DNA of 64,000 nt from a bacterium (GTDB taxonomy: Bacteria; Bacteroidota; Ignavibacteria; SZUA-365): positions 271,572 to 335,571 of the forward strand of contig JAHLLD010000003.1 of the NCBI GenBank assembly GCA_020444325.1, written 5' to 3'. The notes under the pieces are model-generated. The model made no database searches. It was given only the letters and a program-made list of their open reading frames with translations, and had not been told where the DNA came from. The first letter of the stretch is position 1; every line of letters begins with the position of its first letter. The translations under genes were made by a program, and so were the position numbers. Of this stretch, positions 2,211-17,764 are shown one piece after another.

Positions 2211-3371
2211 ATGAAACATACCACTGTTCTCATCGCACTCTGTTTTCTGCTTCAACCCGCGTTTCCCGCATTCTCACAGGATACGCCACCAGGACTGGAT
2301 CCTTCCAGGTATCGGGAGGGATACGACATTCCAGCAGGCGTGGATCATGGCACCTGGGACTTTGACGAATGGCCCGGCGTGGATCATGGCGCGGTGTATG
2401 TGCGTGATTTCATGTACGGGGATGCGGGCGATAAGGTGAAGATCGACTACACGCTCACCGTATTCGATGACGACGATCATACCGGTTACCTGCGCACACC
2501 GTCGGTACTTGCCGAGCGATTTTCCCCGATGTCGGATGTGCTTCGACGCGCGAAAAAGGTGATTGGTATTTTTGCGCATCCTGACGACGAAGTGCTGCTC
2601 GCCGGGGGACTCCTGGCCGCGGCAGCCGCGCAGGGAAAGGGCGGTGATGTTTTTCTGCTCTCCAACGGCGCCGATGGCTCTGCCGGTTTCGATGAGAACG
2701 AAACCGAGGGACTCGACGGATACAACTGTGCCGGGATCATGCCGGATGGGAGCATCCGTGTGGCGACGGATCTCAAAGGAATCGAAAAACCGCGCGTTGC
2801 ACGCCGGTACGGAAAATCACTTGGTGTCGACATCCGCATCCTGCCAGTGCGCTATGAACTCGATGGCCAGACCTGCGTACAGATCGGGGAGTATCCCGGA
2901 CTCGATTTCAAGAAAAGCTTTGGTCCCGGGACGGTGATGCGCCGCGCCATGGCGCGCAGTATCCTCGACCTGCTTCGCAGGGAGAAGCCGGACATCATCA
3001 TTACCCACGGCTCAGGCGGCGAATACGGGAATTACTTCCACGTGACTGTGCATGATCTCGTTGCTGATGCCGCACGCAGGGCTGGAAACGAGTTCATCCT
3101 TCAGCTCTTTACCGGTTTTCCCGAATACAATTACAGCGATCATATCACGCATTACCTCGATCTCGATGCGGATGGTGGAGTATTGAGAAAACGCAAGTTT
3201 GATGCCTTCAGGCATATCAGTTACATCTACCGGGCCGGCAACGACTACGACAAGCCCTGGAATCCGAACGACAAGCTGATGGACGGCGTGTTTGTCAAGG
3301 ATTACGGCTATACTCCCACCGAGGGCAAACCGCCGCGGTACGAGTTTTTCCAGCAGGTCAGACTCCGCTGA
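2211..3371 (+). CDS. Secreted PIG-L family N-deacetylase
   Basis: The product has 386 residues with a signal peptide (about 1-22, cut near AFS-Q). The zinc motif AHPDDE lies near residues 122-127, and a second histidine block, HGSGGEYGNYFH, lies past residue 260, as in LmbE/PIG-L deacetylases that hydrolyse the N-acetyl group of GlcNAc-type sugars. The roughly 95 residues before the catalytic domain contain two copies of GVDHG and are not a domain I know. Most PIG-L enzymes are cytoplasmic, so the signal peptide is notable; it would act in the periplasm or outside. ATG 2211 was chosen over upstream in-frame codons because it begins the signal peptide, 11 nt after the preceding stop. Confidence 0.85.
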   Translation: MKHTTVLIALCFLLQPAFPAFSQDTPPGLDPSRYREGYDIPAGVDHGTWDFDEWPGVDHGAVYVRDFMYGDAGDKVKIDYTLTVFDDDDHTGYLRTPSVLAERFSPMSDVLRRAKKVIGIFAHPDDEVLLAGGLLAAAAAQGKGGDVFLLSNGADGSAGFDENETEGLDGYNCAGIMPDGSIRVATDLKGIEKPRVARRYGKSLGVDIRILPVRYELDGQTCVQIGEYPGLDFKKSFGPGTVMRRAMARSILDLLRREKPDIIITHGSGGEYGNYFHVTVHDLVADAARRAGNEFILQLFTGFPEYNYSDHITHYLDLDADGGVLRKRKFDAFRHISYIYRAGNDYDKPWNPNDKLMDGVFVKDYGYTPTEGKPPRYEFFQQVRLR

Positions 3372-3375
3372 TCCG

Positions 3376-4485
3376 ATGCGCATCATCCACATCGTCAACC
3401 ATTTTCTTCCTTCGCCCGGCGGCGTTGAATGGAGCGTCTTGCGGACAGCCGAGGCACAGAGCCGGCAGGGTGACGATGTGACGGTGATTACCGAAACATC
3501 CCGCGGTGATTATAACGATGATGCGCTGCCGTTTCGTGTACTGCGCTTCCGGGTTCATCTGCTGCGACCTTTGACACGTGTGTTCTACTGGCAATGGATG
3601 TGGAAACATCGCGACATGCTCGCCGCAGCGGATGTGCTGCATTTCCACGACTACACACCGTTCTTCCACTGGTTTATCCCTCTGCGCTTTGTGCTGCGGC
3701 GTCCACTCTACGCGATCACCTTTCACGGTTTTGAACACTGGCCGGTAAAGTTGCGGCACAGGATGATGCGCGGCATCACCGCAAGACTCTGTCACCTGCG
3801 CTTCGCCGTAGGGGAATACGTAAGAAAAATCTACCGCCATCCGGTGGATGTCGTGTACCTGGGTGCCCCGGTGCGGAGCGTGCAGTCCCGGAGTCCTTCA
3901 CCCGATCCGGTATTCGTCTATGCCGGCCGTCTCGAAGAGGATACGGGTATTCTCGAAACAGCACGGGCGCTTTCGCGGACCGCTGCAACGCAGGGCATTG
4001 CCGTGCATCTCGAAATCGCAGGGGAAGGACGACAGCGTCACGCCCTCGAATCGCTACGGAGTCCGCATTTCCGTATCACATTTCATGGGCGCGTGGAAGA
4101 TCCGGAGCGGCTCTTCGCGCATGCGCGCTTCGTCATAGCAGCGGGCTTTCTCGGGATGTTTGAAGCGATGCAGAGTGGACTCCCCGTGCTGGTCCCTGCA
4201 CTGACGGACATCAGGAAAATGTACGCAGCTTCCATCCCTGACGTCGATGCGCTCATGACCGTCATGAGAAGCCCGGAAGGACTCGAAAAGACTCTCGCGG
4301 AAAGTCTGCAATCACCGTTGGCGGACGCCTTTCTGCGTCGTGCCGAAGCCGCCCGTATGTTTGTTTCTGAGCACACATGGAAGGATATTGCCGAGTTGCT
4401 CGCAGCGTCATATTCCGCCGCAATGAACGCACGGAATCGGAGCTCGGAACGCATGACAGGAGGGGGAGTAAAGACGGAGCACTGA
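3376..4485 (+). CDS. Glycosyltransferase family 4
   Basis: This 369-residue protein has a GT-B fold. The N-terminal Rossmann domain starts MRIIHIVNHFLPSPGGVEW, with the Gly-Gly acceptor-side loop. The C-terminal domain has AGEGRQRHALES and a nucleotide-sugar block ending in GMFEAMQSGLPVLVP, equivalent to the usual E-x7-E region. It should transfer a sugar from a nucleotide donor to a growing lipid-linked or surface glycan on the cytoplasmic face; donor and acceptor cannot be read from the sequence. ATG 3376 lies 4 nt after the PIG-L stop, and upstream in-frame codons would extend into that gene. Confidence 0.85.
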   Translation: MRIIHIVNHFLPSPGGVEWSVLRTAEAQSRQGDDVTVITETSRGDYNDDALPFRVLRFRVHLLRPLTRVFYWQWMWKHRDMLAAADVLHFHDYTPFFHWFIPLRFVLRRPLYAITFHGFEHWPVKLRHRMMRGITARLCHLRFAVGEYVRKIYRHPVDVVYLGAPVRSVQSRSPSPDPVFVYAGRLEEDTGILETARALSRTAATQGIAVHLEIAGEGRQRHALESLRSPHFRITFHGRVEDPERLFAHARFVIAAGFLGMFEAMQSGLPVLVPALTDIRKMYAASIPDVDALMTVMRSPEGLEKTLAESLQSPLADAFLRRAEAARMFVSEHTWKDIAELLAASYSAAMNARNRSSERMTGGGVKTEH

Positions 4486-4491
4486 TAACAC

Positions 4492-5676
4492 ATGCAGAAC
4501 GAATCCACATATCATTTCATTTTCTTCGGGCTGACCAGTTTCAGCAGTCTGCCGCAGCGTGAGCAGGGACTGGCGACGGAATGCGCAAGGCTTGGGCACC
4601 GGGTGGACTTCATCGAGATCGCGCCGTCCCTTGCAGGTCGTACGCATGCACTGAAAAACCGCATGTTCGAACCTCTCGCGAGAGACAGTGGATTTGAACG
4701 CAGCAACGGCATTCCCAATCTGCATATCCATACACCACCGACGCTGCCGACGGGGTTTCGCAACAGCCTGACGCCAGGTATCGATCGGACCGTGTTCCGC
4801 CGCTGGTTCCGTCGCCGTTTCCGCGACCTCGATCTGTCAGCCAGCATCGTCATGGTCATGATGCCGCTGTGGTGGGGAAACTTCATTGACAGGGACTTCC
4901 TGAATCCCCGCCTGCTCATCTACGATATCTGCGACGCGCTTGAAGTGCAGAGTCGCAGCCGAAGTACGCTCGAACGTCTTCGGGCAAGCGAATCCGCACT
5001 TGCCGCTGAAGCTGATCTCATTACCTACAGTGCGCGCGAAATGGAAACGGACATCAGCGAACGCTTCCCGGATACCTCCGCGTTTTTCCTGCCCAATGCG
5101 GTTTCACGTGATTTCATCGCCGCCATCGACGACGAGCCTGTTCGTTTCCGGAATGGTGACCCCAAGCACATCGGGTACATCGGCGCCACCAATGGAAAGT
5201 GGTTTGACGCGGATCTCGTCATCGAGACCATGAAGCGATTTCCCGACTGCAAAATTTCCGTTATCGGTCCGGTAGACAAACCGTTTGCCGACCGCTGCAC
5301 AGCCCTTCCTCATGTGACCCTGCATGGTTTCGTTTCCCATGATGCGCTTCCGCAGCATCTGCGTTCTTTCGATGTCGCACTCATTCCGTTCCGCGACAAT
5401 GATATCACCCGCGTGGTAAACCCGCTCAAGCTGTACGAGTATGCCTCGGCCGGACTGCCCGTCGTCGCTACACAAACGGCGGAGCTGCGGCATTACGATG
5501 CATACTGCTATCTCGCCGCAAACAGGGAAGACTATTTCTCGGGCATTCGGCGCGCACTGCAGGAGGACGATGACCACCTGCGTTTGGTGCGGCATCGTTT
5601 CGCCGCCGCGAATACCTGGGAGCAGCGCGTTTCCCAGTTGATCGCATTCCTCTACCGGCACGAGGCGGCAGCCTGA
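4492..5676 (+). CDS. Glycosyltransferase (GT-B fold, TuaH-like)
   Basis: The 394-residue protein begins with a Rossmann-like segment around FGLTSFSSLPQREQGLA. It ends in a Glycos_transf_1-type half with IGYIGATNGKWFD, HGFVSHDALP and NPLKLYEYASAGLPVVA; the last holds the conserved Glu for donor binding. The middle segment LLIYDICDALEVQ resembles teichuronic-acid or exopolysaccharide transferases. The same family often accompanies flippases, as here. It begins 6 nt after the previous gene and ends 1 nt before the flippase ATG (TGA-t-ATG), so the two are probably translationally coupled. The sugar specificity is unknown. Confidence 0.8.
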   Translation: MQNESTYHFIFFGLTSFSSLPQREQGLATECARLGHRVDFIEIAPSLAGRTHALKNRMFEPLARDSGFERSNGIPNLHIHTPPTLPTGFRNSLTPGIDRTVFRRWFRRRFRDLDLSASIVMVMMPLWWGNFIDRDFLNPRLLIYDICDALEVQSRSRSTLERLRASESALAAEADLITYSAREMETDISERFPDTSAFFLPNAVSRDFIAAIDDEPVRFRNGDPKHIGYIGATNGKWFDADLVIETMKRFPDCKISVIGPVDKPFADRCTALPHVTLHGFVSHDALPQHLRSFDVALIPFRDNDITRVVNPLKLYEYASAGLPVVATQTAELRHYDAYCYLAANREDYFSGIRRALQEDDDHLRLVRHRFAAANTWEQRVSQLIAFLYRHEAAA

Positions 5677-5677
5677 T

Positions 5678-6988
5678 ATGCGTCGACTCATCAACAGCAT
5701 TCGTGAACTGCTCCCGCATAGCGCCCGCGACGCCGGCGTGGTGTTTGGTGGTGACGTATTCGCGAAATCGCTGACGTTCCTGATTACACTGTTGATGATG
5801 GATCAGCTTACTCCGGACGAATATCGTCTGTACGGACTCTTCATCACCGTCCTTGCTGCGGTCAACCAGTTCACCGACAGTGGTCTGCATCAGAGCTTCA
5901 TCCGTTTCTCAGCGCTGTACAACAGGACAAATCCCTCCCGCGCACAGGCGCATTTTCATTTTGCCATCCGCGCCAAGACCATCATCATTCTCTTTACCGC
6001 GGCCCTTCTGTATTTCCTGGCTGACACCATCAGCAGCACGCTGCTGCGAACCCCCGAGCTCGGCGGACCGCTGCGTATCATGACGATCGCCATCATCGGC
6101 GGGGGAATGATGGAGTTTATCCTCGCCGTGCTTCAGGCGCGTCAGCAGTTCGTGCATTTCACCATCGTCCGCATCAGCGAAGCGGTGATCAAAACAGGAG
6201 CCATCTATGCAGGGCTCCTGGCCGGCGCATTCTCTCTGCTTCTCGTCTACTACTCCTACGCCGCCGCGCCGCTGATCGTCGGTTTTGTGGCGGCCTGGTT
6301 CGTCTCATCCCGTAACGGGGCAGCGGATGGCGTGAACTGGAAAGATGTCGGACGTGAAATCTGGGCATTCGGGAAATGGATGATGATTACATCCTTCGCG
6401 ACAATGTTCCTCATGCGACTCGACGTTTTCATGATATCCCCGCTGCTGGCACATCAGCCGGAGGAGGCAGGACTGTACATCGCTGCGGCGAGACTCTGTA
6501 CCCCGCTTATGGTTCTGGCGGGTTCGGTGTCCACCGTGTTTTTCCCGAAGGCCATGGAATTGCGTACGCTCGATGAAATGCGCCGGTACGTACGGCGGAC
6601 CTTCAGTGTGAGTCTGCCCGTCACGGGGATTGGTCTGCTGTATCTCGTCGCCATGTATTTCATCACGCCGCAGTATTTCCCGAATTACACCGCGTCGATG
6701 CCACTGTTCGCCGTGCTATTCATCGGATATGCGTGGACGATCATCGGCAATCCACTGACCATACTCATCCTCAGTCTCAACCGCGCGCGCATCGCGACAT
6801 ACATCGCGCTGGGGCAGCTCGTGCTGACTGTGGCTTCCCACTACTATTTCATCACCACACTCGGTTCCATGGGGGCCGCGATCAGCAGCGTCCTCGTCTG
6901 GTTCATCGCTGGCACCGTGTCGATGCTGTACATCTACAGGCATCGGCATGAAATCGTAAGCGCGACGAACACGGAGGCGGCGTCATGA
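5678..6988 (+). CDS. Wzx/MATE-like polysaccharide flippase
   Basis: This 436-residue polytopic inner-membrane protein has about twelve hydrophobic segments. It begins with an amphipathic stretch and [20 protein letters not shown], the typical first helix of the oligosaccharide flippase (RfbX/Wzx) branch of the MOP superfamily. It should move a lipid-linked oligosaccharide across the inner membrane so it can be polymerised or modified outside. Its TGA overlaps the next ATG by 4 nt and it follows two glycosyltransferases, which supports a role in exporting the product of this locus. Confidence 0.85.
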
Positions 6989-7557
6989 AATTGCTGATGG
7001 CGCGCATCGCTTCCTGGCTGTTTCGCAAAATGCAGGGCGCCGACCTGTTTCTCGCATTGCGGGATTTGCGCAGCCGCGGTCACGGAATTGATTCAACGGC
7101 CACGTTCGGTCCCCGCGTCCAACTGCAGATCGACGCATCCTCATCATGCCGTATCGGTGCCGGTACGGAGGTTCTGCATGACAGCTGGCTGATTACACAT
7201 CCAGGCGACACGATGGATATCGGCAGCCGGGTGTTCATTTCCCAGCACTGCACCGTATCCGGCAGTGTGCGCATCGGTGACGATACGCTCATCGGTGGCT
7301 TTGTTACCATCATCGACGGCAATCACGTCACCCGGAATGCAGAGCGCAGCATACGTGAGCAGGGAGGAAAGCAGGTTCCGATCGAGATCGGCAGTGACGT
7401 CTGGATAGGCAGCAATGCTGTCATCCTCCAGGGCGTAAACATCGGCGATCACGCCGTCGTCGCCGCAAACGCCACCGTGACGAAGGACGTCCCGGAATAC
7501 GCCGTGGTCGCGGGCACTCCCGCACGTGTGATCCGCGACAGGAGGGAGGAACGATGA
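6985..7557 (+). CDS. Left-handed beta-helix (hexapeptide repeat) acyltransferase
   Basis: The protein has 190 residues. From about residue 50 it shows hexapeptide-repeat turns ([47 protein letters not shown]) ending in [13 protein letters not shown], the hallmark of WbbJ/LacA-type O- or N-acetyltransferases. It would acetylate a sugar from an acyl-CoA donor in the cytoplasm. Both ends overlap neighbours by 4 nt (ATGA). Compared with sugar O-acetyltransferases of about 185-220 residues it is complete. The acceptor is unknown; a glycan intermediate made by the adjacent transferases is the obvious candidate. Confidence 0.88.
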
Positions 7558-8618
7558 CCGTTGCACGCACGGACTTCAGCGATCGCGAACTCCTCTCCTG
7601 GTGGCAGTCCGCGTATGACAACAATCGCCTGCTGCGCAACACCTTCTTTCAATCTCCCACCTGGAATCATGGCTGGCACCGGTGCTTCGTGGAAAATGAC
7701 GCGCGGCGGGAACTTCTGCTGCTGCGGATTGACGACAGCCATGGTATCGCGGCTGTCGCGCCGCTGTTTCTGCAGCAGCGCAGGACGGCCGGATTCGCCG
7801 TCTGGCGCTATGTGCTTTTTCTCGCCGACAGGTTGGCGCAGTACACCGATCTCGTCACGACGCGAAGCGATGTGGCGGAACTGTGGAAGGTTGTCCGCTC
7901 CTGGATCGCTGCCGAGCTGCCTGATACGTGGATTCAGCTGCACGACATCCTGCCTGAATCCTCAGCAAAGACGGCGGGAATTCATCCCGATGAAATTCTG
8001 CATGGTGATCCGTACCTGCGGCTCGTTCTTGAAGGACGCGATGAGGATTCTTTCCTGCAGCACTGCGCACCGCATATGCAACGGGAGATTTCCCGCGCCC
8101 GCAGACGCTTTGAAGCGGAAACAGACCTGACCTGGGAAGCCGTTTCCTCACCAACTCCAGCACTCGTCGAATCACTCATCTCTCTGAACCGTGCCCGCTT
8201 CGGATCAGCATCATGGTTTGAAGCCGCACAGGCGCGGGATTTTTTTCACAGTGTCTGCGCCAGGGCGGGCAGTGATGTCCTGTTCACGGTCCTCCGTCAT
8301 CGAAGCGCCGTCATTCATGTCATGTGCAGCTACGTCCACGACAGTGAAATGCTGTATGTGCTTTCTGGAATGAACGAGGATTGGAAACGGCTGAGTCCGG
8401 GAAGCATGAATCTCGACCTGAGCATCCGTCACGCCCTGCGCTCCGGATACCGCGGCTTCGACTTTCTGCGCGGTGACGAAGCATACAAGAGGGAATTCAA
8501 TCCCGCAGAGCGACGCAGCGAGCACTGGGTATTGCATACAGGCACAAGTGCGCGGCGGTATCGGCTGGCGACAGGATTGCGCCGCGCCGCCGGTATCGTG
8601 CAGGGAGGAGGCGCATGA
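7554..8618 (+). CDS. FemAB/CelD-like N-acyltransferase
   Basis: This 354-residue protein belongs to the GNAT-like Acetyltransf_6 group (CelD/BcsL, FemAB fold). The second half shows [19 protein letters not shown], typical of the helical arm, and ends with [18 protein letters not shown], the conserved C-terminal signature of this group. Members near exopolysaccharide loci transfer acyl or aminoacyl groups to amino sugars or peptides. ATG overlaps the previous stop by 4 nt and its own stop overlaps the following GNAT gene by 4 nt. With two PIG-L deacetylases in the locus it could re-acylate a freed amino group; that is inference. Confidence 0.8.
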
Positions 8619-9151
8619 AGCTGTTTTCCCGTCAGAGCCTGCGCTTCTACCGGCGAAGCTGTTTTCCCGTTGTGCTGCTGACGGGAAATCCATCCTATAC
8701 GATACTCGGAGCGGATGATTTTCCATGGGACGCGCATCCATTGCAGGAGTTTCTCGGTGTGTACCGCGAACGTTTCGCGCGTGGGGATCGCGCGCTGCTC
8801 GGTCATGATAATGGCGCGATTGTATTCAGTGCCTGGATCTGTTCAGGTACCCTTGAGATCGATGAGCTCAACTACACGTGGCACATCCCGGAAGGGGACG
8901 CCGTTGCGTATGACTGCATCACCATGTCCGAACATCGTGGCAAGGGGATATACACTGCCGCGCTCAGGCGTGTAAGTGGACTGCTGGCAGAGGAGGGCGT
9001 GCAGCATCTCTGGATTTATGTCGATGAAGCGAACACGGCATCCCGGCGTGGCATTGAGCATGCGGACTTCGAATACCACGGCAGCATCACATCGCGGCGC
9101 ATCCTAGGCCGCGTCTCGCTTGAGGGCAGCGTACCGGGAGTGAACGCATGA
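8615..9151 (+). CDS. GNAT family acetyltransferase
   Basis: The protein has 178 residues. The acetyl-CoA loop appears as CITMSEHRGKGIYTAALRRV (near residues 105-124), matching the Q/RxxGxG/A element of GNAT enzymes, and is followed by the strand LWIYVDEANTASRRGIEHADF, with the Asn-x-x-S-x-R/x-Gly motif usual near the acceptor site. It starts at ATG 8615 inside the stop of the CelD-like gene and ends inside the start of the PIG-L gene. It is likely cytoplasmic, acetylating an amino sugar or a precursor of the surface glycan; the substrate is not evident. Confidence 0.8.
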   Translation: MKLFSRQSLRFYRRSCFPVVLLTGNPSYTILGADDFPWDAHPLQEFLGVYRERFARGDRALLGHDNGAIVFSAWICSGTLEIDELNYTWHIPEGDAVAYDCITMSEHRGKGIYTAALRRVSGLLAEEGVQHLWIYVDEANTASRRGIEHADFEYHGSITSRRILGRVSLEGSVPGVNA

Positions 9152-9948
9152 TCGGGGTTCGTCAGTTGATGGACTATTTCACGGGGCGCAGGCTGCGTCT
9201 GCGTGTGCGTCAGATCGCGGCGCTGGCCGGGAACAGCAATGTGACGGTGTACCCGGTTCCGCTTGTTTTCGACGGACCGCCGCAGCGGGTCCTTGTGCTC
9301 ACGCCGCACGCCGATGACGAAACGTTCGGCATGGGTGGGAGCCTGCAGCTGCATCGTGAGAGGGGAGACGACATTCACGTCCTGCTCTTTTCCGACAATG
9401 CAGCATCCATCGACGCCCCCGGAATGGCGACCGCAGAGAAAATCTCCCTTCGGGCGGAAGAGTTTGCAGCGGCCATGCAGGCACAGGGGATTTCCTCGCA
9501 TCAGCATTTGCAACTCGGGAACCGCGACTTCGAAAAGGACGTATACCCGGAAGCGCTTTTTCAGTGCGTGATTGAGAAAGAACCCGAGGTTTTGTATCTT
9601 CCTTCGTTATTCGATAATCACCATGATCATCGGGTGCTGAATATCTGGTTACTGCGGGCGTTACGGACACCGTCCGGCGTTCGCCCCCTTATCAGAGGAT
9701 TCGAAGTCTGGAGTCCGCTTCCTGCAACTGCCGTTACTGATATCACGCAACACATCGAAATCAAGCGCAAGGCAATGCGCTGCTACGCGAGCCAGCAGGA
9801 GGCCATCGACTACGCGCATCACATTGAAGGACTCAATGCATACCGTGCGATGACATTTGGTGAGAAGAAGACGCGATACGCCGAAGCATTTCTTGAATTG
9901 CCTGCAGATGCGTATCTTGACCTCGTAGAAACAACATTGCTTCAGTAG
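9148..9948 (+). CDS. Cytoplasmic PIG-L family deacetylase
   Basis: This 266-residue protein lacks a signal peptide. The zinc site is visible as PHADDE (His54, Asp56, Asp57) and HHDH (158-161), the canonical LmbE/PIG-L pair. Typical members deacetylate GlcNAc linked to inositol, malate or lipid carriers. The gene is the last of five linked by 4-nt ATGA overlaps (flippase, hexapeptide transferase, CelD-like, GNAT, PIG-L), so it probably works on the same sugar that the acyltransferases modify. The locus also encodes a secreted relative at 2211-3371, giving one deacetylase on each side of the membrane. Confidence 0.88.
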   Translation: MIGVRQLMDYFTGRRLRLRVRQIAALAGNSNVTVYPVPLVFDGPPQRVLVLTPHADDETFGMGGSLQLHRERGDDIHVLLFSDNAASIDAPGMATAEKISLRAEEFAAAMQAQGISSHQHLQLGNRDFEKDVYPEALFQCVIEKEPEVLYLPSLFDNHHDHRVLNIWLLRALRTPSGVRPLIRGFEVWSPLPATAVTDITQHIEIKRKAMRCYASQQEAIDYAHHIEGLNAYRAMTFGEKKTRYAEAFLELPADAYLDLVETTLLQ

Positions 9949-9979
9949 ATCCCTGAATACGTTCCCAGGAGGAATTTCA

Positions 9980-10753
9980 ATGCGGAAATCGTCGAAAGCG
10001 TTTATGAGCATCATCTTGGCAGTCACGGCCTTTGTTTTTTGCACAGTGCAGGTGGATGCCCAGATCGGTCAGAACCTTGTGATCAACAGGTTCGTCTCCG
10101 ATCCTGACAACATCGAAACGCATGTGGTGATCAGCGACGTCGACGGCGTCGGTCCCAATCTGAAAATCACCATCTACAACGAGGAAGGCCGACTGGTGTA
10201 CGAGCGTTATGAGACGCTGAACGCATTCGGGAAAATCAACTACAATCCTCTGACCTACCTGAACGCCTATCAGCATGGCTACAATCAGAACCCCAAGTTC
10301 ACCGGTACCGTGCGCATCGAAAGTGACGGTGGCAATATCGCCGGACAGTACTGGGAAAAATACCGCAATATCGATCAGGCGTATCTGAACATCGCGGTGC
10401 CTGCAGCAGACGGCAAGGGATATGACAAGCTGGTGTGTCAGCACTTTGTCAGTGACAAGTCCGTCAACAGCCAGATCATCGTCAGCAACACCGAGGCAGC
10501 GCGTCCTGTGACCGTGGATGTGAAATTCTACAGTGATAACGGCGGGCTGGTCGGTGTCGAGAAGCGCGTCATTCCCGCCAACGGCGTGGTGGCTATCAAC
10601 CCGTACAAATCGCTCAAGGGTGTGCAGATGACCGGAACGGCATACATCGTTGTCGTCGGCGCCGGAAAGATCACTGGCGAATACTGGCAGCAGGCCGATC
10701 GCGAAAAATACCAGGTCGCACTTCCGCTTGAAGGCGTGACGAAGATCCGGTAA
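9980..10753 (+). CDS. Secreted two-lobe protein of unrecognised family (paralogue A)
   Basis: I do not recognise this 257-residue family. It has a signal peptide (about 1-27, cut after VDA) and then two copies of one domain. Lobe 1 (about 32-140) and lobe 2 (about 150-255) share a pattern: H/F-V strand, G-K/V-x-x-N-P, TGT (108-110 and 218-220) and G-x-Y-W (122-125 and 233-236), then a closing V/I-A-V/L-P strand. The 110-residue spacing is near-exact. It looks all-beta, perhaps an adhesin or glycan-binding module. AGGAGG at 9967-9972, 7 nt before ATG, is the best ribosome-binding site in this locus and suggests high expression. The next gene is a paralogue. Confidence 0.75.
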   Translation: MRKSSKAFMSIILAVTAFVFCTVQVDAQIGQNLVINRFVSDPDNIETHVVISDVDGVGPNLKITIYNEEGRLVYERYETLNAFGKINYNPLTYLNAYQHGYNQNPKFTGTVRIESDGGNIAGQYWEKYRNIDQAYLNIAVPAADGKGYDKLVCQHFVSDKSVNSQIIVSNTEAARPVTVDVKFYSDNGGLVGVEKRVIPANGVVAINPYKSLKGVQMTGTAYIVVVGAGKITGEYWQQADREKYQVALPLEGVTKIR

Positions 10754-10762
10754 GGACGCCCC

Positions 10763-11548
10763 ATGGCGGCATCCCTCCGCGGCATATTCCTTCTGACTTT
10801 TGCAATTGCGTGCGCAGTTTCTCCACTGCGCGCGCAATTTGCGTTTGAAGGTGATCACGCCCCGCAGCTGCGCGTCGGGGATCAACTGGTCGTCAACTAC
10901 TTCGAAGCAGACCCCGCAGTATTCGAAACGCATCTCGTCATTACGGATCACGAGGGCACGGGATCTGTCGTCAATGTGCTCTGCTACGATCTTGACGGCG
11001 CACTCGTGGATCAGCAGTCGTATTTCCTGCCCATCTTCGGGAAGGTAAACTATAATCCCGCAGAGCATATCGGGGACCGCAGCTTCAAGGGCACCATACG
11101 TATATACAGCGACGGCGGAAGCGTCTCGGCACAGTACTGGCAGTTCTATCGAGACTCCACACGTTCCGCGTTCAACACGGCCATACCGGCATCGGATGCG
11201 CACGGCGCACGAGCGCTGCTCTGCCAGCACTTTGTTTCTTCGCCCGATATTGATGCACGCCTGGTGCTGGTCAATCCTGCCGCCGACAGCGCCGTCACGG
11301 TTTCCGTCACCTTTTACCTCGATCGCGGGAAGCAGTTGACGCGGGACAAGCATGTCATTCCGCCCAACGGCATGAAGGTGCTGAATCCCTACACGGAGAA
11401 TGAAGGTTTGATCAAAACGGGACTCGCATACTGTGAGGTCGTTGGAGAGGGACGCATCACGGGGGAGTACTGGCAGTACAGTGAAGCTGAGCAGTACCAG
11501 GTTTCACTGCCGCTGGACATCATTCCCGTCCGCAAGAAACACTGGTAA
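10763..11548 (+). CDS. Secreted two-lobe protein of unrecognised family (paralogue B)
   Basis: This 261-residue tandem relative of the preceding gene begins 9 nt after its stop. It has a signal peptide (about 1-24, cut after LRA) and two lobes aligned with those of paralogue A: AQYWQFY (123-129) and GEYWQYS (234-240), LVVNYFEADPAVFETHLVI in lobe 1 and LLCQHFVSS in lobe 2. The linker IPASDAHG matches VPAADGKG of A. One Cys per lobe 2 (CQHFVS) is shared by both proteins. It is probably exported and works with paralogue A, perhaps as a heteromer; no function can be named. Divergence is moderate, so the duplication is not recent. Confidence 0.75.
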   Translation: MAASLRGIFLLTFAIACAVSPLRAQFAFEGDHAPQLRVGDQLVVNYFEADPAVFETHLVITDHEGTGSVVNVLCYDLDGALVDQQSYFLPIFGKVNYNPAEHIGDRSFKGTIRIYSDGGSVSAQYWQFYRDSTRSAFNTAIPASDAHGARALLCQHFVSSPDIDARLVLVNPAADSAVTVSVTFYLDRGKQLTRDKHVIPPNGMKVLNPYTENEGLIKTGLAYCEVVGEGRITGEYWQYSEAEQYQVSLPLDIIPVRKKHW

Positions 11549-11570: not shown

Positions 11571-12335
11571 ATGAGCGAAGACGAAAACGTCAAATCCTTC
11601 ATCGTCGGCAAATACGATGGGGAAGCGGAGGAGAAGGATAACCCGCAATGGATGGAAAAAGGGAAGAGCGTTCGCGTCCCTGAGTCCACCGCCGCACATT
11701 ATTTCATCGACCGCAAGGTGGAGATGGCGCTGAAGCTGTCGCCGCCGGAGCCAGGGCTCCGCGTCCATGAAATCGGCTGCAGCTTCGGTCACATGACTTC
11801 GCTGCTCGCCAGGAAATTCGACCATCTCATCGCGTCCGACATATCTCCGAAAAGCGTGGAAATCGCTGCAGAGCGTTTTCGACACTACGGTATCGACAAC
11901 GTGGACTTTGTCGTTGCCGATGCGGAAAACATGCCGCAGTTCAAGGACGAGGAATTCGACCGCGTGTATTCTTTTTCCACCATTCGTTTCTGTCCCAATC
12001 CCGATCGCGCCATGGCGGAAATTTTCCGATCGATGAAAAGCGGGGGGACACTGGTGGTGGATTTTCCGAATCGCGTGTCTCCCTGGCATGTTCTGATCAA
12101 GGCGATATCGGGCATCAACAAACACGAGCACGACAATCTCTACACGAAGCGCACCGCCGTGCAGCTTGTGGAGGATGCAGGCTTTGTCAACGTCGAGGCG
12201 GTAGAGTTCCTGTTCACCACCAAGCGGCTTCCCAAAACGGTCCTGCCCATATTCAAACTCGCCGATCGCGTCCTTGAGAAAACCCCGCTGCGCCGTCTCG
12301 CCGGCATCATCATGATACGCGCCCGCAAATCCTGA
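11571..12335 (+). CDS. Class I SAM-dependent methyltransferase
   Basis: The product has 254 residues. Motif I is HEIGCSFGHMTSLLARKF, followed by an acidic strand end ASDISP (SAM ribose contact), then VVADAENMPQ and FDRVYSFSTIRFCPNPDRAM, the usual Methyltransf_11 order. GGTLVVDFPN is the post-catalytic strand. It would methylate a small molecule, lipid carrier or sugar. ATG 11571 (MSEDENVKSF) was chosen because the open frame upstream overlaps the preceding gene. The 22-nt gap from the paralogue pair suggests the same transcript. The substrate is unknown. Confidence 0.8.
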   Translation: MSEDENVKSFIVGKYDGEAEEKDNPQWMEKGKSVRVPESTAAHYFIDRKVEMALKLSPPEPGLRVHEIGCSFGHMTSLLARKFDHLIASDISPKSVEIAAERFRHYGIDNVDFVVADAENMPQFKDEEFDRVYSFSTIRFCPNPDRAMAEIFRSMKSGGTLVVDFPNRVSPWHVLIKAISGINKHEHDNLYTKRTAVQLVEDAGFVNVEAVEFLFTTKRLPKTVLPIFKLADRVLEKTPLRRLAGIIMIRARKS

Positions 12336-12395: not shown

Positions 12396-13769
12396 ATGAC
12401 TGACGTGTGCCTGATATGGCCTCCGGCGCCATACGCGTCCGGATTCTGCATCACCGACGATACGGATGCGGCCACCATGGAGCAGGTCCGCTCCGTCTAC
12501 AACTTTCTCTCGGATCGCGGATTCCCGACCACGAAAACCGTCTGGGCTGTTCCACCTGCGGAGCGCTGCGGACTGCCGCCACTTCCAGATTCCACGCTGC
12601 GCGGTATTACGCTGCAGGACGAAGAATACGCCGCGTACTGTGATGCGCTGTTTGCAAAGGGATTTGAAATCTGTCTGCACGGCGCATCCGCGGGAAACAA
12701 CAGGAGGGAGGTACAGGCGCAGGCACTGGATCTGATGCGCCACCGCTACGGGAATCCCTCAACCTACATCTGTCATTCAAAGAATGCCGACAACCTGTAC
12801 TGGGAAGAGCAGGTGACGCGTCTGCAACCGTTTCGCATGCTGTTGCAGCGGATGTCCCATCACCGCACGCTCGGCGCGGTTGAGGACAGTCCGTATTTCT
12901 GGGGAGACCTCTGCCGGGAGCATGTGAAGTACATTCGACTGCTGCGCACGCGTGCCACTGACACGTTGTCCGCCAATCCCTCCATGCCGTATTATGATCC
13001 ATCCCGGCCTTATGTAAAGTACTGGTTCAGCGCGACGAAGCGAGCACTGAAGGACTGTGCAACACCAGAGGCGCTGCGCAGTCTGCGCGAGAATCACGGT
13101 CTCACTGTGCTGTACCAGTATCTGCACCGATACGCGTATCCTGAGACGCTGGAGTTGAACCCGGATTTTGCAGCGTCCGTTGAGCGCATCCTGCAGAGCG
13201 GGGATATCCTCGTTGCACCCGTGGGACGCATGATGGACCGTCTGCGTCTCATGCAGGGTGTTTTTCTGCTTACTCATGGTGAAAGAAACTGGCTGCTGAA
13301 TATCAAGGATGAGGATGTGACGCATGTCCAGCTTGCGACTCTCGCAGCAAGCAGCAGTACTCTGGTACTCGAGTCCGTCCCTGCCGGTCATATGATCGAG
13401 ATAGAACTCCCGCGCGACTGGCGTCCCACCGGCCGCAACGTCATTGAGCTGCAATCCGATCTGACGGCCGTACACAGGAGCAAAGCGGGCACGCTCACAG
13501 TCAATTGCTCCGACACTGAACGCCGCGCTGCAGACCGATCCATCGGATCTCAGGCAGGCACGCTGCAGCCAATGTCATGGCATTACACATCGCATACCGG
13601 TGCCGCACATCGTCCGCTTTCCGTTCTCAGCCGGAAGGAAGAATTCTCCATGCTGGCCGCTCAGAGCTGGATCATCCTGAGGGAAATCCTGCTCAGACGC
13701 CGCCACATGAATCCCGAAAAACACCTCGGCGAAGAAGAAATCGCGCTCGAGAACCACGACAACTGGTAA
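12396..13769 (+). CDS. Polysaccharide deacetylase-like (NodB-fold) protein
   Basis: The 457-residue protein opens with FCITDDTDAATMEQVRSVY, resembling motif 1 of NodB/CE4 deacetylases (the Asp-Asp metal/base pair). Then come GFPTTKTVWAVPP and FEICLHGASAGNNRREV, with a HG-x-S block like the motif 2 region. The C-terminal 120 residues form a beta-rich extension. There is no signal peptide, so it may be cytoplasmic. If active it would remove acetyl groups from a polysaccharide or its precursor, but I cannot complete the metal-binding triad, so activity is uncertain. It ends just before an AT-rich spacer with two palindromes. Confidence 0.6.
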   Translation: MTDVCLIWPPAPYASGFCITDDTDAATMEQVRSVYNFLSDRGFPTTKTVWAVPPAERCGLPPLPDSTLRGITLQDEEYAAYCDALFAKGFEICLHGASAGNNRREVQAQALDLMRHRYGNPSTYICHSKNADNLYWEEQVTRLQPFRMLLQRMSHHRTLGAVEDSPYFWGDLCREHVKYIRLLRTRATDTLSANPSMPYYDPSRPYVKYWFSATKRALKDCATPEALRSLRENHGLTVLYQYLHRYAYPETLELNPDFAASVERILQSGDILVAPVGRMMDRLRLMQGVFLLTHGERNWLLNIKDEDVTHVQLATLAASSSTLVLESVPAGHMIEIELPRDWRPTGRNVIELQSDLTAVHRSKAGTLTVNCSDTERRAADRSIGSQAGTLQPMSWHYTSHTGAAHRPLSVLSRKEEFSMLAAQSWIILREILLRRRHMNPEKHLGEEEIALENHDNW

Positions 13770-13939: not shown

Positions 13940-15430
13940 ATGCACCCACTTTGTAAAATCACCATCGTCTGCGTCGCGATCGGAATCTGTGTTCCGCTGA
14001 CCAGTTCAGCTCAATGGACAGAAGTCGATCTTCCTCGTCCTGACTACCTTGCGACGCCCCCTGCGATTCCTAACCTTGGTCCCTTCGAATGGGCGGATTC
14101 CCTCAACGGCTTCGTATTTGAGATGAATGGCTCGTTCTACCGCACGCAGGATGGGGGAGAGTCCTGGTTGCGTGATTCGCTTAACATGGCCGGATACGAC
14201 AGCGTCCGCCACCATTTCACCGTCCGAACATGCGATTTCGCGAACGCGAGTTTTGGTGTCGTCACGATAGCGCGGTCATATGCTGATCGAGATAGTCTAT
14301 TGTTCATTACGACCGATGGGGGGAGCAGCTGGGAGCGAAGACCTCTTTCTGTTCCTGACAGGTACAAGATGATTGCAGAGCAGTTGCTGCCACTCGACAA
14401 CGGAAATCTGATTCACTTTCTGTCAATCCACGCACCGGACAGTCTCGGCGACTATAGCGTGCGACTGGATCTTATGCGGTTATCCACCGACCGGGGTAAG
14501 AACTGGTCCGTCTTTTCCATCGATACCGTGGATCGGCGGGTATCGTTTCTCCCAACTCGCTTCTGGATCCGTGTCGATTCTCTTCACTACTATAAAATCG
14601 AATACGGCTTCGAAACAGTCAGTGAGCATGTCGGATTCACGTCGTACAGTGCTGACGGCGGTCAAACCTGGATCATGCTCAAACATCCATACCCGAGCAA
14701 TCATCCACTGTACGTTGGCCGCATCTCAGGAAGTGCAGGGCACGTGGCGAGAGTGAACGATACCGGAATAGTCGTTTCATTTGGAGGCAGGACGCTCGTT
14801 ACCCGTGACGTAAAGCGTCATTATGCCGACTGGGGTTGGATTCGGTCAGAAGATGTTTTTCCTGAAACACCGGGTTACTATGTCACGGACATGTCCTATA
14901 TCGACGGTTGGCTGCTTTGTTTTCGCAAAAGCCCTTACAACTCAGACGCATCTGACACCGTGTGGATTGCCAACATGCAGGGAAATCGCAAACAGCATGG
15001 ATTCCCAGCTCCGAAAAAGAATCTCAATGAACCTCGACTTCACACTCCTGCGGCAACGCGCATTTTTCTCAAAGACGGTGCCCATATCTGGCGTTTCGAT
15101 CGCGACGTTGTGACCGTACAGCGCTTCGAAATTCCAGCCGAAATTGGACCAGGTTTCGAGATATATCCGAATCCACTTATGCTGCGAAATACATCAAGGA
15201 CACTACATGTGGATTTCAGCAGGGACGGAACGGGGTCGGATTTCGGTACGGTGCGGATCCATGATTTGCGAGGCAGGCTCTGCGCTGAACACAGATGGAA
15301 CTGGCACGGACAAACAAATCACGTTGTCGATATCACGCTTCCGGAATGGCTGCCGGCTGGAATGTATCTGGTCACAACCGAGACAAATAAATTTCAGATG
15401 GACACCAAGAGACTCATCCTGATGGACTGA
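13940..15430 (+). CDS. Secreted BNR-repeat protein with type IX secretion C-terminal domain
   Basis: The protein has 496 residues with a signal peptide (about 1-27). Four BNR/Asp-box-like turns are visible (TQDGGESW, TTDGGSSWERR, STDRGKNWS, SADGGQTWIM), indicating a beta-propeller like those of sialidases or photosystem assembly factor-like proteins. The last 80 residues start with FEIYPNP and end in LPAGMYLVTTETNKF, then K-x-L-I-L, a type A sorting domain recognised by type IX secretion. It is therefore probably a surface-attached or released propeller. GGAGGG lies 4 nt before ATG. It is flanked by its own spacers and is probably a separate transcription unit. Confidence 0.78.
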   Translation: MHPLCKITIVCVAIGICVPLTSSAQWTEVDLPRPDYLATPPAIPNLGPFEWADSLNGFVFEMNGSFYRTQDGGESWLRDSLNMAGYDSVRHHFTVRTCDFANASFGVVTIARSYADRDSLLFITTDGGSSWERRPLSVPDRYKMIAEQLLPLDNGNLIHFLSIHAPDSLGDYSVRLDLMRLSTDRGKNWSVFSIDTVDRRVSFLPTRFWIRVDSLHYYKIEYGFETVSEHVGFTSYSADGGQTWIMLKHPYPSNHPLYVGRISGSAGHVARVNDTGIVVSFGGRTLVTRDVKRHYADWGWIRSEDVFPETPGYYVTDMSYIDGWLLCFRKSPYNSDASDTVWIANMQGNRKQHGFPAPKKNLNEPRLHTPAATRIFLKDGAHIWRFDRDVVTVQRFEIPAEIGPGFEIYPNPLMLRNTSRTLHVDFSRDGTGSDFGTVRIHDLRGRLCAEHRWNWHGQTNHVVDITLPEWLPAGMYLVTTETNKFQMDTKRLILMD

Positions 15431-15613: not shown

Positions 15614-16381
15614 ATGAAGGAATCCACTAAAAAGAACTGGGACGATTTCTGGGATCAGAAATCCGATACCAAGGAAGTTTATGCGAATACGGATCGCATA
15701 CGGCACAACCTTTCCCGCAATATGGATCTCGATGGCAAACGTATCCTTGAAGTCGGCGCCGGTACAGGTCGTGACAGTTTTTACATGTCACAGGACGGCG
15801 CGTCGCTCGTCCTTCTCGATTATTCAATGAATTCCCTGAAGATCATCCGGAACAATCTGCCGAACACGGACAATATTGGGGCTGTCGGCGGCGATGCTTT
15901 CGCGCTGCCGTTTCCTGATAATTCTTTCGATGCGGTGTTTCATCAGGGACTGCTGGAACATTTCCGCGAAACGGACGCGGAAAATCTGCTGAAGGAAAAT
16001 ATCCGTGTCCTCAAACCCGGCGGACTCCTGGTCGTCGACGTACCACAGCGCTGGCACATTTACACGGCCATCAAACACGTCCTTATAGCCCTGAATTCCT
16101 GGTTTGCGGGCTGGGAACGTGAATTTTCCGTCTCGGAGCTTCGTAAACTGCTTAAAAAGCTCGGAATGCAGCCCGTGGACGCCTACGGTGAATGGATGTA
16201 TCCCAGCCTCTTTTACCGGACCTTCCGCGAGGCATTCTACAAAATAGGCGTCAAACTCCCTCTCTATCCGCGTATGATTCCGCCAGTTTCGCGCCTTCGT
16301 GAGAAAATCCGCAAAGGAATGGACGGTTCCCCGCTCAAACTCAACACCTCGCTCTCCATCGGCGTCATAGCGAAGAAATGA
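15614..16381 (+). CDS. Class I SAM-dependent methyltransferase
   Basis: This 255-residue protein has motif I as LEVGAGTGRDSFYMSQDG, an acidic ribose-binding end LLDYSMNS, then GGDAFALPFPDNSFDAVFHQG (motif II) and VLKPGGLLVVDVPQ. This Methyltransf_11-type enzyme differs from the one at 11571-12335 outside these motifs. The stretch WDQKSDTKEVYANTDRIRHN near the start is typical of methyltransferases in O-antigen or exopolysaccharide loci. It stands alone between two spacers, with a glycosyltransferase downstream on the same strand. The substrate is unknown. Confidence 0.8.
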   Translation: MKESTKKNWDDFWDQKSDTKEVYANTDRIRHNLSRNMDLDGKRILEVGAGTGRDSFYMSQDGASLVLLDYSMNSLKIIRNNLPNTDNIGAVGGDAFALPFPDNSFDAVFHQGLLEHFRETDAENLLKENIRVLKPGGLLVVDVPQRWHIYTAIKHVLIALNSWFAGWEREFSVSELRKLLKKLGMQPVDAYGEWMYPSLFYRTFREAFYKIGVKLPLYPRMIPPVSRLREKIRKGMDGSPLKLNTSLSIGVIAKK

Positions 16382-16388
16382 CATACCT

Positions 16389-16430
16389 CAGATTGCAGAT
16401 GTCAAATTGCAGATTACAGATTGCAAACTT
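16389..16430. repeat. Heptanucleotide tandem repeat (CAGATTN x6)
   Basis: Six consecutive 7-mers can be read directly: CAGATTG, CAGATGT, CAAATTG, CAGATTA, CAGATTG, CAAACTT. The array begins 8 bases after the methyltransferase stop and is not part of any gene. It could be a decayed microsatellite or part of a dispersed intergenic repeat family. Confidence 0.65.
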
Positions 16431-16438
16431 GGCCGGAG

Positions 16439-16499
16439 CAGGGATTGCTTTCCCTGCCCTGTCCTCTGAAGCCTGTCAACTTCATGAAAGCAATCCCTG
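16439..16499. repeat. Perfect 14-bp inverted repeat with 33-nt loop
   Basis: CAGGGATTGCTTTC at 16439-16452 is exactly complementary to GAAAGCAATCCCTG at 16486-16499. It could form a stable hairpin in the transcript downstream of the methyltransferase, but there is no T-run. It may be a non-autonomous repeat element rather than a terminator. Confidence 0.65.
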
Positions 16500-16564
16500 G
16501 CTACGAATCCGGAATGGAAAAATGAAATGAGTCAACGATGGAAATATCACATCCACGAAGTATG

Positions 16565-16596
16565 TTTCCATCTTTCCATTCTTCAATCTTTCCATT
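16565..16596. repeat. Octanucleotide tandem repeat (TTTCCATY x4)
   Basis: Four 8-mers follow in register: TTTCCATC, TTTCCATT, CTTCAATC, TTTCCATT. Reverse-complement units (ATGGAAA) occur about 40 bases upstream in the same spacer, at 16513-16543. A similar array on the opposite strand lies at 24467-24490, so this looks like a dispersed intergenic repeat. Confidence 0.55.
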
Positions 16597-16636
16597 GTAA
16601 AGCTATATCTCTATATGCTATTATCAACATGAGATA

Positions 16637-17764
16637 ATGACAGATAACAAGCTAAAAATACTGGTATTTAACTGGCAGGACCTTACAAATCCGTTAGCAG
16701 GTGGGGCTGAGGTACATCTGCACGAAGTGTTTGAAAGGTTGGCTGCGCGAGGACATGAAGTGACGCTGTACTGTCACTATTTCAAAGGGGCAAAACACGA
16801 GGAAATACGAAACGGGATACGGATTATTCGTCAAGGGGGACGATTTTTCTTCAATTTCCACGTTCCACTGGCCTATTTTCGTCGTTTTCGCAGGGAGAAT
16901 TATGATGTGGTGGTCGATGACGTCAACAAAATCCCCTTCTATACGCCTCTTTTCTGCCGTGAACCCGTCCAGGGCGTAACGCATCACCTCTTTGGAAAGA
17001 GTATTTTCCTTGAGACCGTGTTCCCTCTGGCTGCCTATGTCTACCTGATGGAACGACTCATTAAACCGGTATATCGGAAGGTGCATTTCATCATCGGTTC
17101 TCCAAGTACATCGAAAGAATACCTGGAATGGGGCTTTCCCAAGGATCAGGTATCCGTTGTTAACTACTGTGTCAACAAGCAGATATACTATCTTGATGAA
17201 AGTAATACCTATCATCGTAATCGGATTGGGTATTTCGGAAGATTGAAGAAGTACAAGTCGGTCGATCACCTGATCAGGGCGATGGACAGGCTGCGTGACG
17301 ACTATCCGGATCTTCATCTCGACATCATCGGTGATGGTGATGACAAATCCAGGCTCGAGGCGCTCACAACGGAACTGAAGCTCGGGGAACGTATCACGTT
17401 TCACGGTTTCATTGATGAGGAAGCCAAGGCTCCCCTTCTGCAGCAGATGAACTTTGTAGTGAATACGTCTTCAAAGGAAGGCTGGGGACTCACCGTCGTC
17501 GAAGCCAACGCCTGTGGCGCTCCTGTCGTCGCCGCGAATGTACCGGGACTCAGGGATTCCGTCGTCGACGGAGAGACCGGGCTGCTTTACGATTTCGGCA
17601 ATATTGACGACCTGATCGCCAAAATGAAGGTGTTTCTCGACTCCACAGAAACGCGTGACGCGTTCCGTGAGCGCGCACTGGCCTGGGCTGCGAAATTCGA
17701 CTGGGAGCACGCTGCCACCGAAACCGAGCAGCTCATCCGCCGTACCATCGCCCGCTGGCGGTAA
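16637..17764 (+). CDS. Glycosyltransferase family 4
   Basis: The 375-residue GT-B enzyme has an N-terminal block FNWQDLTNPLAGGAEVHLHE with the Gly-Gly loop. Its C-terminal donor domain has IGYFGRLKKYKSVDHLI, IGDGDDKSRLEAL, HGFIDEEAK and SKEGWGLTVVEANACGAPV, which includes the E-x7-E motif. It would transfer a sugar to a surface glycan on the cytoplasmic side. The 5' part is less GC-rich than the upstream operon, and the gene follows a repeat-bearing spacer, so it may have been added separately. It converges on ribE with only 11 bases between the stops and no visible terminator. Confidence 0.87.
   Translation: MTDNKLKILVFNWQDLTNPLAGGAEVHLHEVFERLAARGHEVTLYCHYFKGAKHEEIRNGIRIIRQGGRFFFNFHVPLAYFRRFRRENYDVVVDDVNKIPFYTPLFCREPVQGVTHHLFGKSIFLETVFPLAAYVYLMERLIKPVYRKVHFIIGSPSTSKEYLEWGFPKDQVSVVNYCVNKQIYYLDESNTYHRNRIGYFGRLKKYKSVDHLIRAMDRLRDDYPDLHLDIIGDGDDKSRLEALTTELKLGERITFHGFIDEEAKAPLLQQMNFVVNTSSKEGWGLTVVEANACGAPVVAANVPGLRDSVVDGETGLLYDFGNIDDLIAKMKVFLDSTETRDAFRERALAWAAKFDWEHAATETEQLIRRTIARWR

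Follow-up and report, generated by a model that had tools for sequence, protein, structure and literature searches.

What do two small exported proteins do for a bacterium when their genes follow an operon for glycan synthesis? This question is raised by SpA and SpB, neighbouring genes in the 64,000-nucleotide stretch of DNA that was analysed (the window). A sequence-only reading had described them as tandem secreted paralogues with a duplicated domain of no known family, strongly expressed, surface-exposed and possibly glycan-binding. The genes and the export signal of the first are the following.

9980..10753, + strand: SpA, exported two-lobe protein of 257 aa (ORF, alignment, AlphaFold2 model)
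9980..10060, + strand: signal peptide of SpA, predicted cleavage after ...QVDA and before Q28 (by eye)
10763..11548, + strand: SpB, exported two-lobe paralogue of SpA, 261 aa (ORF, alignment, AlphaFold2 model)

Both genes are on the + strand with a spacer of 9 bases, and their products are 42% identical. Each product begins with a Sec-type signal peptide ending in A-Q, as judged by eye, and the Gln at the predicted cleavage site (Q28 of SpA) does not vary in the family alignments. The description as adjacent exported paralogues was thus borne out. Surface exposure was not. SpA has no lipobox Cys, and the PROSITE-type lipobox match in SpB is patchy, being present in some orthologues, including that of the window, and absent from others. 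No type IX sorting domain was found: the match of SpA to CHU_C (PF13585) reaches 19 bits against a cut-off of 27, lies at residues 35-84 rather than at the C-terminus, and was dropped as an identity on both counts. The conservation of SpA is also too strong for a surface protein of the usual variable kind. The idea of a conserved disulfide was abandoned, as mature SpA has one Cys and the two Cys of SpB lobe C are not always kept together.

Is each protein internally duplicated? Four lobes can be delimited.

10061..10402, + strand: SpA lobe N, residues 28-141 (lobe alignment, model, profile comparison)
10403..10750, + strand: SpA lobe C, residues 142-257, TM1070-like sandwich in the model, Z 14.3
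10871..11188, + strand: SpB lobe N, residues 37-142 (lobe alignment, model)
11189..11545, + strand: SpB lobe C, residues 143-261, TM1070-like sandwich in the model, Z 14.2

The N and C lobes of SpA were aligned with a score of 100 (best of 1000 shuffles, 50) and those of SpB with a score of 48 (best of 1000 shuffles, 46). Lobe pairs taken across the two proteins score 69-273 against shuffle maxima of 48-60, and the family profiles of the N and C lobes match over 91 columns in a profile-profile comparison (probability 99.7%, E 1e-26), which confirms two homologous lobes per protein. The TGT...GxYW pattern that had been assigned to every lobe at a spacing of about 110 residues stood for SpA, in which the exact string is present in both lobes and TGT occurs at 108 and 218, 110 residues apart; in SpB it is degenerate (KGT...AQYW and TGL...GEYW). 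In a tree of 78 lobes, a fully supported split separates all N lobes from all C lobes, and the lobe duplication is therefore older than the gene duplications. A C-x-H motif lies at the start of lobe C of SpA (residues 153-155, 10436-10444) and is kept in nearly all members across all four paralogue groups.

To which fold do the lobes belong? Sequence searches of NCBIfam and the PDB with SpA/SpB gave nothing meaningful. Pfam listed no fibronectin or cohesin family for either protein, and these identities, which the sequence-only reading had named as examples of characterised families, were dropped. AlphaFold2 models were built from 38 (SpA) and 36 (SpB) related sequences and have mean pLDDT values of 90.4 and 89.2. 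Foldseek alone was uninformative on the two-domain chains. With a second structural aligner, the modelled C lobes matched one solved structure far better than any other, Thermotoga maritima TM1070 (1nc7), with Z 14.3 and 2.3 A over 106 residues for SpA and Z 14.2 and 2.1 A over 106 residues for SpB. The match covers 106 of 116-117 residues at 8-12% sequence identity and concerns the C lobes; the N lobes are reached through the homology between N and C. The next-best structures have Z 5.9 (SpA) and Z 5.5 (SpB). GH2 sandwich domains, IBDV VP2 and a fungal lectin, next in the ranking at Z <6, were set aside as background. On the predicted models, SpA and SpB have a TM1070-type fold.

TM1070 is a member of PF07100 and the reference structure of the ASRT/ASRAH superfamily, for which sugar binding is a prediction (PMC2739507). 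In this superfamily, a secreted actinobacterial ASRAH branch consists of dyads (two domains per protein) whose genes adjoin one for a glycosyltransferase, and solo members form tetramers (PMC2739507). The ASRT of Anabaena has been investigated as a DNA-looping protein (PMC8660804). When the lobe C profile was compared with twelve ASRT sequences, 40 columns aligned in the register that strand order predicts; the score of 25.7 was matched by 1 of 200 column shuffles, and the HH probability, only 18.5%, is weak. The lobe N profile gave no signal against ASRT (30 of 200 column shuffles reach its score). The weak lobe C alignment places N170 of SpA (strand 163-170) on the near-invariant Asn of ASRT strand 2. 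This strand-2-end Asn is present in the C lobes of SpA and SpB; the N lobes have an invariant Asp at the position (D53 of SpA), and the C lobes of the paralogue 2A, described below, mostly have Asp. The ASRT strand-1 Trp is absent from the aligned members, which have Leu, Val, Ile, Tyr or Phe, and the SHEshChhN His/Cys cleft signature is replaced by ETHVVISD in SpA lobe N and NSQIIVSN in SpA lobe C. No Pfam match to PF07100 was found in SpA, SpB or their relatives, and the window's own genome is without any. A second family, DUF5719 (PF18986), was matched by 15 of 38 relatives at E up to 1; two paralogues exceed its cut-off of 26.2 bits (30.6 and 26.9), and SpA and SpB fall below it. DUF5719 probably corresponds to the secreted actinobacterial ASRAH dyads; no mention of it was found in the literature searched.

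Since the sequence link is weak and both the strand-1 Trp and the His/Cys signature are absent, the lobes are, as judged on the models, a divergent relative of the ASRT/ASRAH superfamily and are not filed in PF07100. The claim of no known family therefore stood only in part: the classical ASRT signatures are missing, but a TM1070/ASRT fold match and a remote DUF5719 link were found. With the ASRT family (PF07100; TM1070 1nc7; Anabaena sensory rhodopsin transducer 2ii7), SpA/SpB share the one-lobe beta-sandwich and the C-lobe strand-2 Asn, but they are exported and duplicated whereas ASRT proteins are cytosolic and solo. They are like the secreted actinobacterial ASRAH dyads (De Souza et al., 2009; PMC2739507) in being exported, in having two ASRAH-like domains and in being encoded beside a glycosyltransferase. 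Unlike these, they are two dyads in tandem, in another phylum, without a conserved lipobox, inside a full flippase-type glycan operon and with an OmpA-fused sister pair. Could the resemblance to TM1070 be due to chance, an unrelated Ig/fibronectin-like beta-sandwich having merely the same common arrangement? The 8-12% identity, the weak profile evidence and the sub-threshold CHU_C match in SpA alone would fit. A Z of 14 in two separate models, a gap of >8 to the next structure, the coverage of the lobe, the same strand register in sequence and the independent DUF5719 matches speak against it, and we regard it as very improbable.

How closely is the pair tied to glycan synthesis? Two sets of neighbouring genes are relevant.

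2226..9948, + strand: upstream glycan operon (Pfam, synteny)
15614..17764, + strand: methyltransferase and GT4 glycosyltransferase, 3' of SpA-SpB in most relatives examined (Pfam, synteny)

The upstream operon encodes a PIG-L deacetylase, two GT4 glycosyltransferases, a Wzx-type flippase, a hexapeptide acyltransferase, a FemAB-like GNAT, a GNAT and a PIG-L; the two genes for PIG-L type deacetylases lie at 2226-3371 and 9148-9948. In the neighbourhoods read, the gene order flippase, (acyltransferase), FemAB/GNAT, PIG-L, SpA, SpB recurs with minor changes, also in families of the order other than that of the window. SpA-SpB were found beside glycan genes in every first-pair neighbourhood read, and a PIG-L gene is directly 5' of the pair in nearly all loci read; in one (L035) its call was masked by an antisense ORF, and the gene was found by tblastn. 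The position after glycan genes was accordingly upheld by Pfam and synteny. The downstream methyltransferase and glycosyltransferase are separated from SpB by a variable stretch; they were not found next to the pair in G006 (L033), a single-contig genome. Within the window, a 457 aa ORF without a Pfam family (12396-13769) follows a methyltransferase at 11571 and was not found in the relatives' loci compared. An exported BNR/Asp-box repeat protein is encoded at 13940-15430, with a weak type IX sorting domain of 18.6 bits, below the cut-off; no counterpart was found in the loci of the five relatives compared.

Of the genes in the neighbourhood, SpA is the most conserved. Identity to two related loci (L032 and L034) is 92-93% for mature SpA and 84-89% for SpB, with values of 45-73% for the upstream glycan genes and 82-89% for the downstream methyltransferase and glycosyltransferase. 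For SpA, dN/dS is about 0.05-0.09; many of the genes compared have a dS close to saturation.

Expression signals are unequal for the two genes.

9967..9972, + strand: AGGAGG ribosome-binding site of SpA, 7 bases before the ATG (sequence, RBS scan)
10751..10756, + strand: TAAGGA, Shine-Dalgarno of SpB, overlapping the SpA stop codon (sequence, RBS scan)

The AGGAGG of SpA had been called the best of the locus; the site is there, but in the RBS scan it is tied with those of two operon genes, the FemAB-like one at 7554 and the GNAT gene at 8615. Codon usage independently supports high expression of SpA, whose CAI of 0.757 is the highest of the 29 window genes scored and lies inside the range of ribosomal operon genes of the same genome (0.67-0.83). 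The CAI of SpB is ordinary (0.649), and equal stoichiometry is therefore not implied. Given the overlap of its Shine-Dalgarno with the SpA stop codon, translation of SpB is apparently coupled to that of SpA. No convincing promoter was found directly 5' of SpA.

Conservation and codon bias bear on the leading rival explanation, in which SpA/SpB would form an abundant periplasmic or outer-membrane scaffold whose sandwiches make protein-protein contacts and bind no sugar, their place in the operon reflecting co-regulation. In favour of this are the conservation of SpA, the highest in its neighbourhood, its codon bias, the strongest among the window genes scored, the much greater variation of the upstream glycan genes, and the existence of an OmpA-fused paralogue. 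Such a purely structural role is nevertheless doubtful, given order-wide synteny with the same flippase/acetyltransferase/deacetylase set and a fold superfamily predicted to bind small ligands (PMC2739507).

How widespread is the family? A profile search detected it in 16/16 genomes of the order, and the SpA-SpB pair itself, whole or partial, is present in nearly all 16. In one incomplete genome (G310, 70%) a single family gene of the 2A type, cut by the contig end, was seen, and in another (G309) SpA runs off the contig end. Most relatives have a second tandem pair, 2A-2B, at a separate site. In 2A (about 367 aa) the two lobes precede an OmpA peptidoglycan-binding domain (PF00691, E 2e-25), and 2B (about 236 aa) consists of two lobes alone; this C-terminal domain is absent from SpA, SpB and 2B. 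At the otherwise syntenic site in the window's genome, between the gene for a probable FAD-type protein (6210-7508 of L126) and a DUF92 gene, the pair is absent; this genome has lost it. The DUF92 protein there (L126 7508-8482, contig C1) has 259 aa instead of the usual ~500 and is without its N-terminal half.

The second pair also weighs on a further alternative, that SpA/SpB are an accessory factor, a periplasmic carrier or chaperone presenting the glycan to modifying enzymes rather than the final scaffold. The position directly 3' of a PIG-L deacetylase gene in nearly all loci read, the apparent translational coupling and the export of both proteins agree with this. 2A-2B, however, lie outside any glycan locus and are tied to peptidoglycan by OmpA, and the high codon bias of SpA fits a bulk component better; a carrier or chaperone role thus appears quite unlikely.

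Returning to the proteins' own function, we infer an exported ASRT/ASRAH-like pair in the cell envelope, a four-domain unit that binds the operon's glycan or peptidoglycan, and we give this proposal an even chance of being correct. SpA and SpB would cross the inner membrane by Sec and remain in the envelope. There SpA at high copy and SpB as its operon partner would jointly supply four sandwich domains, equal to the domain number of a TM1070/ASRT tetramer. Together they would bind the glycan made by the same operon, or a piece of peptidoglycan, and may link glycan and envelope as a scaffold or tether. In relatives, 2A-2B may do the same job, anchored to peptidoglycan by the OmpA domain. Sugar binding, put forward as a possibility by the sequence-only reading, is the best-supported predicted function because both models match the fold of a superfamily predicted to bind sugars. 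Against it, divergence is much faster in the glycan genes than in SpA, an odd pattern for a protein with a specific glycan ligand. The conservation of SpA beside fast-changing glycan enzymes suggests that its target is an invariant part of the glycan or envelope, or that its role is mainly structural.

In a stronger version, the two dyads would be co-expressed and assemble into a mixed lectin unit of four domains on the cell's own glycan, duplicated into a free and a peptidoglycan-anchored set, as an envelope complex that defines the lineage, an uncultured order of the Ignavibacteria type; this is unlikely in our judgement. If true, it would represent a new kind of glycan-to-peptidoglycan tether. 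The fold assignment adds an uncultured order of Bacteroidota/Ignavibacteria to the range of a predicted sugar-binding superfamily that has been little studied; in this order, double dyads are linked to glycan synthesis and, through the OmpA fusion, to peptidoglycan. SpA and SpB are small, confidently predicted and strongly conserved, and they are suited to a direct check of the sugar-binding prediction for ASRAH.

Beyond the order, hardly any members were found. Viral contigs and phages held no relatives of SpA/SpB, plasmids gave one match only (21.5% identity, E 0.04), and no further matches from outside the order appeared in phylum samples of 296 and 395 genomes. The named contigs that carry the family are MAGs labelled Ignavibacteria, Bacteroidetes or Chlorobiota; one with the label Ectothiorhodospiraceae has probably been misassigned, because its family genes occupy the same syntenic locus. 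The one convincing match outside the order (G312, about 300 aa) is from another order of the same class. It is encoded by a single two-lobe gene (L099 1495-2406) that adjoins a gene for an unannotated exported protein, has a proline-rich linker after the signal peptide, and also has C-x-H at the start of lobe C.
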